From a virus: DNA of 37,363 bases. The stretch covers positions 1 to 37,363 of the IMG/VR virus record IMGVR_UViG_3300044691_000218; one strand, given 5' to 3'. Position 1 is the first letter of the stretch, and each line of letters begins with the position of its first letter. The translations under genes and the position numbers were made by a program. Positions 23,957 through 31,783 of this stretch are shown in pieces. The notes under the pieces were generated by a model. The model did no database searches. It was not told the origin of the DNA and saw only the letters and a program-made list of their open reading frames with translations.

Positions 23957-24153
23957 TTTTCCCTCACCCACTTTGTTCCTTTCGCGTCCACGTAAAAATC
24001 AGGCTGTTTGACCTGGATGGTGATTGTGTATTCAGGCTCTTCGATCGCTTCGTTAAACGTTGCAGTTATCGGGAAATTATCGATTGGTGTCGCTTTAATC
24101 TGCTGTGAAACCCACGTTTTTAGATGCAAAAGTTTTGTGATTTTTTGTGTCAT
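23953..24153 (-). CDS. Small beta-type phage protein, 66 aa
   Basis: MTQKITKLLHLKTWVSQQIK followed by beta-like EYTITIQVKQPDFYVD. The ATG overlaps the recombinase stop (ATGA) and its stop overlaps the next start. No family recognised. Confidence 0.6.
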   Translation of the reverse strand: MTQKITKLLHLKTWVSQQIKATPIDNFPITATFNEAIEEPEYTITIQVKQPDFYVDAKGTKWVREK

Positions 24154-24710
24154 GCGTTAGATTCCTTTAAATATTTGTACAATGTAAACCGTGAAATGCC
24201 CAATTCTTTAGCTATCTGTGTTTTGGTTTTTCGTGTTTGCATTTGCTGCTTCATCTCAACGATTTTTTCTTTCGCTATGGCTTTTCTACCCTTGTATTTG
24301 CCGAGCTTCTTAGCAACTGCGATTCCCTCGCGCTGTCTCTCTAGAATAAATGCATGCTCAAACTCCGCGAATGCGCCCATCATATGCAGCATTAGGTTAG
24401 ATAAGGCTGAGTTCTCGTCACTGAATACGAGGCCCTCTTTAATGAATCTCACTTTTACTTTTCTGGCAATGAGTCCACTCACTATCTCTTTTAGGTCTGC
24501 CACTCGACGAGAAAGCCTATCCATGCTGTGCACGATTAGAGTGTCATCTTCACGGATAAACTCTAGCAAATTCGTGAGCTGTGGTCTATCCATATTTCTA
24601 GCAGTTGCGTAGTCAACGAAAACTTTGTCAAGCTTAACATTTTCAAGCTGCCTATCAGGGTTTTGGTCTGGTCCACTTACCCGTTTGTATCCGATGTTTT
24701 TTCCTGTCAT
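24150..24710 (-). CDS. Serine recombinase, resolvase/invertase family
   Basis: 186 aa, the usual size for Tn3-type resolvases. The catalytic Ser12 lies in IGYKRVSGPDQ (with Arg10), and the second active-site element is HSMDRLSRR (61-69). The long E helix includes ERQREGIAVAK (124-134), and a C-terminal HTH spans about 163-182 (KTQIAKELGISRFTLYKYL). It cuts and rejoins DNA at a two-fold site, typically to resolve dimers or invert a segment. It is embedded in the early operon. No invertible segment was seen. Confidence 0.92.
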   Translation of the reverse strand: MTGKNIGYKRVSGPDQNPDRQLENVKLDKVFVDYATARNMDRPQLTNLLEFIREDDTLIVHSMDRLSRRVADLKEIVSGLIARKVKVRFIKEGLVFSDENSALSNLMLHMMGAFAEFEHAFILERQREGIAVAKKLGKYKGRKAIAKEKIVEMKQQMQTRKTKTQIAKELGISRFTLYKYLKESNA

Positions 24711-27368: not shown

Positions 27369-27571
27369 TCTGTTTTTTCCATTTTTACTCTAAATTGTTT
27401 TTTCATAAGTTCGCAGGTAAAATCAAAATCTGCCTCTGAAACTTCATGTTGCTTGCAGTACGCTACTAGCATACAATTTAAAAAAGTCATGACTTCATTC
27501 GGCATGACTTTTTTTTCTTCGCAAGCTTTTAATAAAATATCTTTAACATCATCTAAATCGTTATAATCCAT
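27365..27571 (-). CDS. Small helical early protein, 68 aa
   Basis: MDYNDLDDVKDILLKACEEK, then NEVMTFLNCMLVAYCKQHEV and FTCELMKKQFRVKM. It is likely a relative of the 76-aa product next to it. ATG 27571 overlaps the ParB-like stop as TAATG. Unknown function. Confidence 0.6.
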   Translation of the reverse strand: MDYNDLDDVKDILLKACEEKKVMPNEVMTFLNCMLVAYCKQHEVSEADFDFTCELMKKQFRVKMEKTE

Positions 27572-28029
27572 TATAATAATTCTCCACAGTTAGGGCAGCT
27601 CTTTTTTTTCTTGCTGCTGCCTTTTTCTTTTTGTTCACCTTCTTCTTGGCATGAGCCTAAAAGTTGCTCTTCGGTAAATCCATATGATAAAAGCTCGAGA
27701 GGATCAAATTCGTTGGCTAGGATATCATAGTCAAAACTTCCCTGATGCAAGTTCAATCCAATCATTAATTCTTCTACTTCTTCGTCTAACAACTCACGAT
27801 CAGCTACCCAGCATTCTACCGTCTTAACCTTTTTCTTTTTGAGAGCGCGAATCCTTTGATGTCCTCCAATGATTGTCATGTCCGTATTGATAATGGGTTT
27901 ATCGATGAGCCCGAACTTATCTATCAAATTGGATAATCTGTCAAATTGATCTTTTTTGATCTGTCTTGGATTTTTTGGATGTTCTTTTAAAGACTTTATT
28001 AGCAGTTCTTCTAGTTTCCATTTAATCAT
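27571..28029 (-). CDS. ParB/sulfiredoxin-fold protein with C-terminal zinc-ribbon half
   Basis: 152 aa. HPKNPRQI (17-24) and GGHQRIRAL (54-62) are the conserved ParB-N motifs. A helical segment (SFDYDILANEFDPLELLSYG) follows. A Lys-rich linker leads to CPNCGELL, half of a zinc ribbon. In phages such proteins often bind DNA or nucleotides and accompany DNA-modification genes. No ParA partner and no methyltransferase are present here. Confidence 0.85.
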   Translation of the reverse strand: MIKWKLEELLIKSLKEHPKNPRQIKKDQFDRLSNLIDKFGLIDKPIINTDMTIIGGHQRIRALKKKKVKTVECWVADRELLDEEVEELMIGLNLHQGSFDYDILANEFDPLELLSYGFTEEQLLGSCQEEGEQKEKGSSKKKKSCPNCGELL

Positions 28030-29364: not shown

Positions 29365-29703
29365 TTACATTCCCATATCTACTTTATCGAAATCATCCGC
29401 AAATATTTTCTTTCCCGCAAAATGAGATCCTGGAGGATTAATAGGTCGATTTCCATCACTCCATTCAATCACTTCAGAAATTTTTAAATCAGGATTATTT
29501 TTTGCTGCTGCGAAACCTTGCCTATATCCTCTACGATAAGCTCGCTCTTCGTCGCTATCAATGAAATCTTTTTGCCTTTGAGAAAGGAGATTATATTCAT
29601 CATCGCATTCAGTAATTTCTTTTACCCACTTAAAATAGTCTTTTTCGTCCATGACTTCACCGGAGTAACTGCTTTCATATTTTCCGTCTTCTCTCTTTCT
29701 CAT
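29365..29703 (-). CDS. Unrecognised early protein, 112 aa
   Basis: A charged protein opening MRKREDGKYESSYSGEVMDE, with ERAYRRGYRQGFAAAK near 55-70 and ending DDFDKVDMGM. The Arg/Gly repeat-like helix resembles short sequences in phage early proteins of unknown function. ATG overlaps the replication-gene stop (ATGA). Confidence 0.6.
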   Translation of the reverse strand: MRKREDGKYESSYSGEVMDEKDYFKWVKEITECDDEYNLLSQRQKDFIDSDEERAYRRGYRQGFAAAKNNPDLKISEVIEWSDGNRPINPPGSHFAGKKIFADDFDKVDMGM

Positions 29704-30626
29704 TCTAAAATCCTAAATTTATTAGTTTTAAGCGCTTCCTTGAATTTCTCCATGAAACCTTTCTCCTCGTATTTGATAAAAACACCTGCTGCGGAAGCGC
29801 CACCATGTACGATTTCTACATGTTTACTGCAACATTCTATTTTAGCAATCTTATTTTTTAGACCATCGTATTTTGCTGCGTATTTTCGGTTATCGTCCTC
29901 AACTTCTTCCTTGTTCTTCGAAACTTCAGGTTTATCTTTACATGCCCATTTAATCGAGGCAGCTAGGCAATTCGTCGGAGGATGATCTTTGTGTGTAGAA
30001 TAAACTACTGCGTTCCTAACGGTTGATTCGTCATAGCGTGAAGTAATCCAAACTTTATCGCTCTGTGGAATATCAATATCATTGAGGCATTCATGTATCA
30101 CAGGCTCTTTCTGAATCTTCTTTTTTGATGCAGAAAAAACAGCAGCAGCCGGCGCAGCCTGTTGTTGTTTCTTTTCTTTTGTAATAGTTTCTTTTGTGTG
30201 CGTCCTAGGAACGTGGGTTTGTAGATCTAAAGACGCGGGTTGTGGGACTTTAGGACGCGGGTAGGAATTATTTGAAAGCATCTCCATTTCTTCTTCGCTG
30301 ATCTCGTCGTCATCGAAATTTTCCGCTTTCATTTCCTCCATGACAAGACGAAAATATAGTCTTTCATTTCCATTTTTTCCGAATCTTTTCTCTTCGATTA
30401 ATCCTTTTTCTATCAAGGATTTTAATGACCTATATACCGATTTACGCTCCATTCCAGTTTTTTTTGCTAAAATCCCGATAGTTATTCTATCCCATTCCTT
30501 ATGCCAACCGAAAGTTTGTCTTATCAATACAAGAACAATTCGAAGTTCTCCCTCTTTCAAAGTCTTAAAGATTTCATCGAATAGGATATTTGGACTTTGC
30601 GTATAATTTGGGGCTTGAATTTTCAT
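29700..30626 (-). CDS. Replication initiator, phage O-type replisome organiser
   Basis: 308 aa. The N-terminal winged helix (about 1-95) reads SPNILFDEIFKTLKEGELRI, then TFGWHKEWDRITIGILAKKTG and RKSVYRSLKSLIEKGLIEEK, the signature of phage replication-O N-terminal domains. A flexible Lys/Gln/Ala linker (about 120-170) follows. The C-terminal part (CLAASIKWACKDKPE; FKEALKTNKFRILE) may contact host helicase loader. It would bind the origin and recruit host replication proteins. No phage helicase or polymerase is encoded. Confidence 0.82.
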   Translation of the reverse strand: MKIQAPNYTQSPNILFDEIFKTLKEGELRIVLVLIRQTFGWHKEWDRITIGILAKKTGMERKSVYRSLKSLIEKGLIEEKRFGKNGNERLYFRLVMEEMKAENFDDDEISEEEMEMLSNNSYPRPKVPQPASLDLQTHVPRTHTKETITKEKKQQQAAPAAAVFSASKKKIQKEPVIHECLNDIDIPQSDKVWITSRYDESTVRNAVVYSTHKDHPPTNCLAASIKWACKDKPEVSKNKEEVEDDNRKYAAKYDGLKNKIAKIECCSKHVEIVHGGASAAGVFIKYEEKGFMEKFKEALKTNKFRILE

Positions 30627-30895
30627 TCTTCACCCCCTTTTACAAGATCTCCTGATTCAATTAATTCATTGACAAGTTCTTCTAATCTTTTTTCGGGGAT
30701 ATATTTGAAATGAGAGCTTAATCCTTTCAAATTTTTATTTGGTGCATCGTCAATATTAGCAAGAATACAGGCTCTTTCTAAGCCAATGACTTTAGCCATT
30801 TCGGGAGAGAAATTGTGACAATCTTTAACCCCTTTTATTACCGTAAAGGTGGAGTTTTCAAAATCTTTAGGTGGTTTTTTCTTCGACATGGACAT
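30623..30895 (-). CDS. Small winged-helix replication-associated protein, 90 aa
   Basis: ATG 30895 or 30889 (AAGGG upstream). The domain NFSPEMAKVIGLERACILAN, then YIPEKRLEELVNELIESGDL resembles the winged helix seen in phage and plasmid replication proteins. The stop overlaps the initiator start (ATGA), so they are made together. It probably helps recognise the origin or regulates the operon. Confidence 0.6.
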   Translation of the reverse strand: MSMSKKKPPKDFENSTFTVIKGVKDCHNFSPEMAKVIGLERACILANIDDAPNKNLKGLSSHFKYIPEKRLEELVNELIESGDLVKGGEE

Positions 30896-30901
30896 TATCC
30901 C

Positions 30902-31034
30902 TTGTTGTTAAAGTTTACTTTAATCAACAAAGAGCTGGATCGAAATGTATCAAAATGATAAGCTGTGGATATTATCGTGTTACATTAGTGAGCTCTAACT
31001 CACTTTGATACTTTTCTTTTTCAGTTCTTTGTTG
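30902..31034. other. Origin/operator candidate: nested dyad with a DnaA-box-like site
   Basis: The outer arms CAACAAAGAGCTG (30925-30937) and CAGTTCTTTGTTG (31022-31034) match at 12 of 13 positions in inverted order. The inner arms GTATCAAA (30947-30954) and TTTGATAC (31004-31011) are perfect. Both pairs centre on about 30979. TGTGGATAT (30964-30972) is one base from a DnaA box. A further 29-bp imperfect palindrome covers 30902-30930, next to the replication genes. The layout fits an origin or a looping operator. Confidence 0.55.
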
Positions 31035-31071
31035 GGGTGTTGTGAGTAAAAGCATAACACCCTTTCTTTTT
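31035..31071 (+). terminator. Rho-independent terminator with no gene upstream
   Basis: GGGTGTT (31035-31041) pairs with AACACCC (31056-31062) over a 14-nt loop, followed by TTTCTTTTT. It is oriented rightward although the nearest upstream rightward gene is more than 2 kb away. It may end a small RNA from the dyad region. Confidence 0.7.
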
Positions 31072-31171
31072 AAGCCGTTTTGTTTCGTAGATATGACGCG
31101 AACGAGAATTTATTCCGACATAGCCGGAACGGCTCATTCACTTTTGCTTTCTCAAAATTACGTCGTATCAT
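31070..31171 (-). CDS. Tiny basic leftward protein, 33 aa
   Basis: ATG 31171 preceded by AGGAG; MIRRNFEKAKVNEPFRLCRN at the start and Arg/Lys/Phe-rich throughout. It overlaps a rightward promoter. A good start signal is the main support. Function unknown. Confidence 0.4.
   Translation of the reverse strand: MIRRNFEKAKVNEPFRLCRNKFSFASYLRNKTA
31144..31171 (+). promoter_or_regulatory. Possible promoter of the 50-aa membrane protein
   Basis: TTGCTT (31144-31149), 16-bp spacer, TATCAT (31166-31171). It is followed by a TAGGT/ACCTA inverted repeat at 31195-31208 and then the gene at 31246. Moderately good match. Confidence 0.45.
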
Positions 31172-31245: not shown

Positions 31246-31398
31246 ATGCGCATGATGCAATATGAGAGCAAACGGATATTTAGTCCATATACTCGCGAGC
31301 GATTCAGCCCTCACAAAAAACCGCCAAGATCAACCGTCGCTATTTTGATTCTGCTCTTGATTCTGATGCTTTTGGCAGTCTTTAGCTTTGGTCTGTAG
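31246..31398 (+). CDS. Small C-tail-anchored membrane protein, 50 aa
   Basis: A strong GGAGG site precedes the ATG. The first 28 residues are basic (MRMMQYESKRIFSPYTRERF); the last 20 are one hydrophobic helix (AILILLLILMLLAVFSFGL). The final 69 bp overlap antisense to the end of the HTH gene. Holin-like, toxin-like or immunity roles are possible. Confidence 0.6.
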   Translation: MRMMQYESKRIFSPYTRERFSPHKKPPRSTVAILILLLILMLLAVFSFGL

Positions 31399-31601: not shown

Positions 31602-31630
31602 ATTATAGTTAAAGTAGGATTATTTTGCAA
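31602..31630 (-). promoter_or_regulatory. Promoter of the HTH regulator
   Basis: TTGCAA (31630-31625), 17-bp spacer, TATAAT (31607-31602) on the minus strand. It diverges from the rightward promoter at 31666. Confidence 0.78.
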
Positions 31631-31694: not shown

Positions 31695-31783
31695 TGGACA
31701 CATAAACGATCACTAGTCTCGCTAGGTGACCTGTTAAATCAGGCTAGTTTGTAGCAGGTGACGTAAACAACATGGAGATTAAG

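Follow-up and report, generated by a model that had tools for sequence, protein, structure and literature searches.

A candidate antisense-RNA attenuator of plasmid type before a phage O-like replication initiator gene

A nested dyad in front of the replication genes of a phage is likely to be a plasmid-style antisense-RNA attenuator of the replication initiator, as judged by comparison of related leaders and by thermodynamic modelling. The dyad lies in a viral DNA of 37,363 nucleotides (IMG/VR record IMGVR_UViG_3300044691_000218), the whole of which is called the window here. According to profile searches the window also encodes a portal protein, RecT/RecE and an O-like initiator. Three mutually complementary segments make up the leader of the leftward mRNA for this initiator: segment 1 is the right arm of the dyad, segment 2 the left arm and segment 3 the SD region. 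The features are collected in Table 1.

Table 1. Features of the putative attenuator and its surroundings (window coordinates)
Feature	Position	Strand	Basis
O-like replication initiator gene	29700-30626	-	PF04492 Phage_rep_O 3e-11; phrog_678 O-like 9e-26
Three iteron-like repeats within O, period 22 bp	30202-30267	-	codon-shuffle test
90-aa gene, first behind the leader	30623-30895	-	ORF; without Pfam or PHROG match
Segment 3, SD region CAACAAGGG of the leftward mRNA	30899-30907	-	pairing, shuffle and leader comparisons
Segment 2:3 hairpin hiding the SD (side palindrome)	30902-30930	-	inverted-repeat search; 0/200 shuffles
Segment 2, left arm, with the anti-SD CAGCUCUUUGUUG in its outer part	30925-30958	-	inverted repeats, helix tests
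Antisense promoter, -35 TGGATC (TAGACA-like in relatives)	30936-30941	+	promoter scoring
Antisense promoter, extended -10 TGATAAGCT	30956-30964	+	invariant motif of relatives; promoter scoring
Predicted antisense RNA, about 100 nt	30971-31071	+	start inferred 7 nt after the -10
Hairpin GTGAG...CTCAC in the predicted antisense RNA	30988-31003	+	kept in L002, L004, L013, L016, L022
Segment 1, right arm; pre-emptor of segment 2 and target of the predicted antisense RNA	31000-31034	-	
Intrinsic terminator of the predicted antisense RNA	31034-31071	+	hairpin 31034-31063, then T-run TTTCTTTTT
33-aa ORF with SD, ends at the terminator	31070-31171	-	sequence
Best leftward promoter TTGCAA-17-TATAAT, before the HTH gene	31602-31630	-	promoter scan

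An inverted-repeat search bore out the two nested inverted pairs with a common centre near 30979 that a sequence-only reading of the region had described. The outer arms (30925-30937/31022-31034; 13 nt, 92% complementary) are centred on 30979.5, the inner arms (30942-30958/31000-31016; 17 nt, 88% complementary) on 30979. The gaps between them, given as equal at 9-10 bp, agree with this only approximately and amount to 4 and 5 nt when the full arms are taken. The imperfect palindrome said to abut the dyad is present (30902-30912/30920-30930, 82% complementary) and coincides with the 2:3 hairpin. That such symmetry exceeds chance also held. The + strand of the dyad region folds with -55.2 kcal/mol, i.e. 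z -8.0 against dinucleotide shuffles, the - strand with z -6.0, and the 1:2 and 2:3 duplexes were each matched by 0 of 200 shuffles. The intrinsic terminator and the promoter within the left arm had been overlooked. The proposed link to the replication genes was confirmed: the gene at 29700-30626 matches the O-type initiators PF04492 and phrog_678, and an O-like initiator gene lies downstream of the dyad in the window and in about 20 related IMG/VR contigs. The 90-aa gene between leader and initiator probably starts at its second ATG (30887-30889), which is better spaced, 9 nt from the SD.

A motif within this region, TTAAAGTTTACTTTAA, was considered as a repressor operator. No second copy with up to 2 mismatches was present in the window, and two matches with 3 mismatches were within chance. 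Its altered form in L013 and L016 makes a role in the 2:3 hairpin the better explanation.

Does an mRNA cross the dyad? The next well-supported gene on the right side of the dyad is oppositely oriented in the window and in L002, L004 and L016, where leftward transcription across the dyad is therefore no more than presumed. From its sequence, the promoter in front of the HTH gene is a candidate source. In many relatives a 91-95-aa gene (MIIRQDF..., without Pfam match) lies directly upstream of the attenuator, e.g. in L029 (3894-4169) and L031 (3550-3831, - strand); the window has the 33-aa ORF at this place.

Across the leaders a segment complementary to the SD is located about 35-60 nt upstream of the start codon. 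The SD region pairs as UCUUUGUUG:CAACAAGGG in the window, UCUAUCCUUU:AAAGGAUAGA in L031, GUGCCUCUUGU:ACAAGAGGCAU in L037 and CUUUUUUCUCGG:CCGAGGAGAGAG in L026. The 22 initiator leaders had a median SD:anti-SD helix score of 19; for 117 further leaders from these phages it was 11 (p = 1e-11; because the leaders are mutually related and not fully independent, this and the other p-values of leader tests overstate independence). The side palindrome of the window is this SD:anti-SD relation. The anti-SD segment has a second complementary partner farther upstream, and this pair is the large dyad. Segment 1:2 helices exceeded those of shuffles in most leaders, often overlapping the nucleotides which pair with the SD. 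In many relatives the same nucleotides of segment 2 are contested by 1:2 and 2:3 pairing. In 18 leaders, own partners paired better than swapped partners for 2:3, for 1:2 and for antisense RNA with SD (0 of 20000 permutations were as good). An inhibitory stem-loop containing the SD, as in pSK41-type attenuators, was found in the window and in relatives.

The invariant TGATAAG in the left arm corresponds to an extended -10 (TGA-TAnnnT), preceded at a distance of about 17 bp by a TAGACA-like -35. This promoter is directed rightward, away from the initiator gene. An unbiased promoter score detected a signal on the antisense strand only (mean z 0.95, p = 1e-5, with related leaders counted as independent; other strand -0.03), and in 20 of the 22 leaders the -10 ended 68-86 nt from the start codon. 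The window's own antisense promoter is weak (p = 0.44 against shuffles). An intrinsic terminator likewise lies on the antisense strand in nearly all relatives. Its end usually coincides with the stop codon of the upstream gene, which in most of them reads toward the initiator. With a promoter in the left arm and a terminator behind the right arm, the RNA would be antisense to segment 1 and not to segment 2. The predicted transcript is exactly antisense to segment 1 and the loop and stops short of segment 2. It folds into a hairpin, a single-stranded U-rich stretch and the terminator. A mini-ORF in the junction (ATG ATA AGC...) was discarded; it is not conserved and stops after three codons in L002.

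The consequences of these pairings were modelled thermodynamically. SD openness had a median of 0.40 with the real upstream part vs 0.13 with a shuffled one (p = 4e-5), and it dropped when the antisense target was blocked (p = 2e-5, full vs blocked), both p-values being subject to the same relatedness of leaders. In the window it fell from 0.54 to 0.02. An alternative pairing that opens the SD and is disrupted by the antisense RNA was thus obtained in the models, with L021, L026 and L030 as exceptions. We propose that with few genomes the antisense RNA would be scarce, 1:2 would form, the SD would be open and initiator would be made. As the antisense RNA accumulates with genome number it would occupy segment 1, segment 2 would close on the SD, and initiator synthesis would stop. 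Since segment 1 resembles segment 3, the antisense RNA might in addition bind the SD itself, with the same result. Genome copy number would thereby feed back negatively on the initiation of replication. Production and binding of the antisense RNA and the limitation of copy number are inferred. Because the 2:3 hairpin lacks a U-run and holds the SD, control would be translational.

Direct pairing with the SD, in trans or in cis, might be the sole action of the antisense RNA, and the dyad then a byproduct of a shared anti-SD. The complementarity between antisense RNA and SD is specific, own pairs being superior to swapped ones in 20000 of 20000 permutations, and several copies of segment 1 are present in L014, L024, L042, L048 and L062. 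We nevertheless consider this unlikely, as it leaves unexplained the long, conserved 1:2 pairing that opens the SD in the models and why the antisense RNA ends short of segment 2. Still less probable is that the rightward promoter acts through collision of polymerases with leftward transcription, the RNA being incidental. Its map position is that of lambda pO/oop, and such interference, proposed for lambda pR and pO, is reported for lambda by PMC3985674; yet SD:anti-SD pairing and its co-variation are not predicted by it.

We first modelled the region as a small RNA of about 150 nt, structured and acting in trans, that comprises both arms (6S-like or protein-binding). This was in line with the z of -8 for the fold of dyad plus terminator, which L002 shows as well. 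It was dropped after about 20 more relatives had been inspected, because the invariant 'junction' AUGAUAAG turned out to be the extended -10 inside the left arm. The best-supported promoter thus lies within the left arm, so that this arm is absent from the transcript. In addition, no Rfam family matched at or above gathering score. We now hold this model to be very improbable.

A RecT search yielded 80 loci, roughly 20 of which have a comparable dyad before the initiator gene. In L002 and L004 the dyad is kept almost letter for letter; in L016, L022 and L013 it is kept with heavily changed arms. Generally, the arms of relatives differ in sequence and nonetheless still match one another and the SD as complements. 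The sequence-only reading had taken arms that are not conserved beside conserved genes as evidence against its proposal; this situation exists for the arm sequences, but not for the pairing of the arms. The initiators of the relatives match several different PHROG families, i.e. the leader was kept although the N-terminal domain of the initiator was exchanged. Segment 1 is repeated in 3-5 copies in L014, L024, L042, L048 (3841-3989) and L062, where the anti-SD would thus occur several times in the predicted antisense RNA. Individual relatives deviate. L030 has dyad, promoter and terminator and lacks the SD pairing; in L021 the SD-openness model runs in the opposite direction; L026 and L040 have weak 1:2 helices, and L048 has no clear antisense promoter. 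Seven relatives beyond the test set were scored as well: L062, L057 and L014 fit, and L053, L034, L045 and L043 were weak or mixed; in L045 and L053 pairing which the automatic score missed is visible by eye. We give about even chances to the broader proposal of a widespread, modular copy-number switch of phages, in which the attenuator cassette is kept across the phage group while arm sequences, the N-terminal domain of the initiator and the upstream gene are exchanged, and some versions have tandem competing segments.

L014 is a 10.6-kb phage-like contig in a genome bin of about 0.8 Mb with a RecT that is 41-44% identical; it carries a matching attenuator layout and could be either a prophage or a phage contig binned by mistake. 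Among relatives of the genome bin G001 there were no further RecT loci of value. The exact pattern GTATCAAA...TTTGATACTTTTC was absent from the cellular genome collection, and its occurrences in L006-L012 were chance matches without a comparable fold.

The sequence-only reading had suggested a replication origin or a looping operator. The DnaA-box-like TGTGGATAT near the centre of the dyad is present (30964-30972) and overlaps the -10/start site of the predicted antisense RNA. The site reads TAACGAGTA in L002, TGTGCATAT in L004 and TGACGGGCG in L016, and comparison with these three revealed no conserved initiator or DnaA sites within the dyad. Instead, initiator genes of many relatives carry iterons of lambda type, three copies spaced 22-24 bp. 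Over the initiator genes as a whole, the period of these direct repeats is 21-24 bp and their place near nt 290-460; in lambda, too, iteron repeats are located within O. They are clear in L021, L022, L029, L031, L037, L042, L044 and L048, eight relatives with iterons at the same relative place for which 0 of 40 codon shuffles were as good. The repeats of the window are marginal (2 of 40 codon shuffles equally good). By sequence, the origin is more likely inside O than in the dyad. A looping operator is disfavoured because between relatives the arms are wholly replaced and yet go on pairing with one another and with the SD, a pattern that suggests base pairing at the RNA level; moreover, a promoter is enclosed by the arms and an intrinsic terminator marks their end. 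The dyad is probably neither origin nor looping operator, and a DNA-level element of either kind is the least probable explanation: the dyad adjoins the replication genes and has TGTGGATAT near its centre, but the iterons lie within O, TGTGGATAT is not conserved, and arm sequences vary freely while pairing, including that with the SD, is kept.

Several further features of the neighbourhood were noted. CTAGTCTCGCTAGGTGACCTGTTAAATCAGGCTAGTTTGTAGCAGGTGAC (31712-31763, + strand), at the start of the rightward recT transcript, is near-identical in L002, L004, L013 and L016. Possibly it is a leader element for antitermination or translation control; the fold of the region is unremarkable (z -1.8). 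A conserved 50-aa ORF without Pfam match (31246-31398, + strand) has a C-terminal membrane segment and overlaps the HTH gene in antisense; L002, L004, L016 and L013 have similar short ORFs. A protein with a U-box-like domain is encoded beside recE/recT in L004 (5451-6347) and L002 (1064-1960); in the L004 protein, profile searches found PF04564 (4e-5) and zf-Nse (1e-6). This eukaryote-like domain might point to a host that lives inside eukaryotic cells. The window encodes a serine recombinase (24150-24710, - strand) and a ParB-like protein (27571-28029, - strand). Together with a control of copy-number type they raise the question of a plasmid-like stage, of which neither is proof.

The proposed attenuator most closely recalls pSK41 and other staphylococcal RepA_N plasmids. 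There, an RNAI of about 83 nt is counter-transcribed to the rep leader about 100 nt upstream of the start, its binding induces a stem-loop which hides the ribosome-binding site, and the origin is within rep (PMC5703833). Shared, by prediction, are the antisense promoter in the initiator leader, the stem-loop hiding the ribosome-binding site, the translational output and the probable origin within the initiator gene. The likeness is one of layout. Here we deal with an O-like initiator in a phage genome, the leader lies between two genes in many relatives, and segment 1 doubles as an SD mimic that is repeated in some of them. The three-segment logic, with a pre-emptor competing for the 5' arm of the inhibitory stem-loop, is that of pT181 RNAI/repC. 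pT181, however, works mainly by transcription termination, unlike a 2:3 hairpin that has no U-run and holds the SD. With lambda oop/pO the proposed system shares a short antisense RNA with an intrinsic terminator and a promoter just upstream of O, reading away from it. In lambda, pO is within a few bp of the O start, whereas here the predicted start site is 75-93 nt away, and oop targets cII, whereas the predicted target here is the initiator leader. oop was reported to be without effect on O-P mRNA (PMC3985674). In the same tests the lambda O leader had an SD helix score of 12 and an accessibility of 0.33 vs 0.35, and so showed neither the SD helix nor the switch. P1/P7 c4 and P22 sar are phage antisense RNAs that likewise block translation starts (see also PMC12197685); they regulate antirepressors, not a replication initiator, and were likened by description only. 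The open-access literature searched contained no phage O gene under such an attenuator. Relative to these papers the phage case would be new, a possibility that the first reading had raised for the region, while the copy-number brake itself is known from plasmids.

Antisense attenuators are classic copy-number controls of plasmids. Replication control in lambda-type phages is usually ascribed to repressors, transcriptional activation of the origin and turnover of the initiator. If our interpretation is true, a conserved attenuator before O-like genes would constitute a plasmid-like brake for a phage family and a natural counterpart to lambda oop/pO, whose part in replication has long been debated. 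Its recognisable signature of SD, anti-SD, outward promoter and terminator may serve to find more cases in metagenomes. If the modular switch is also true, genome copy number would be a regulated quantity during phage replication.
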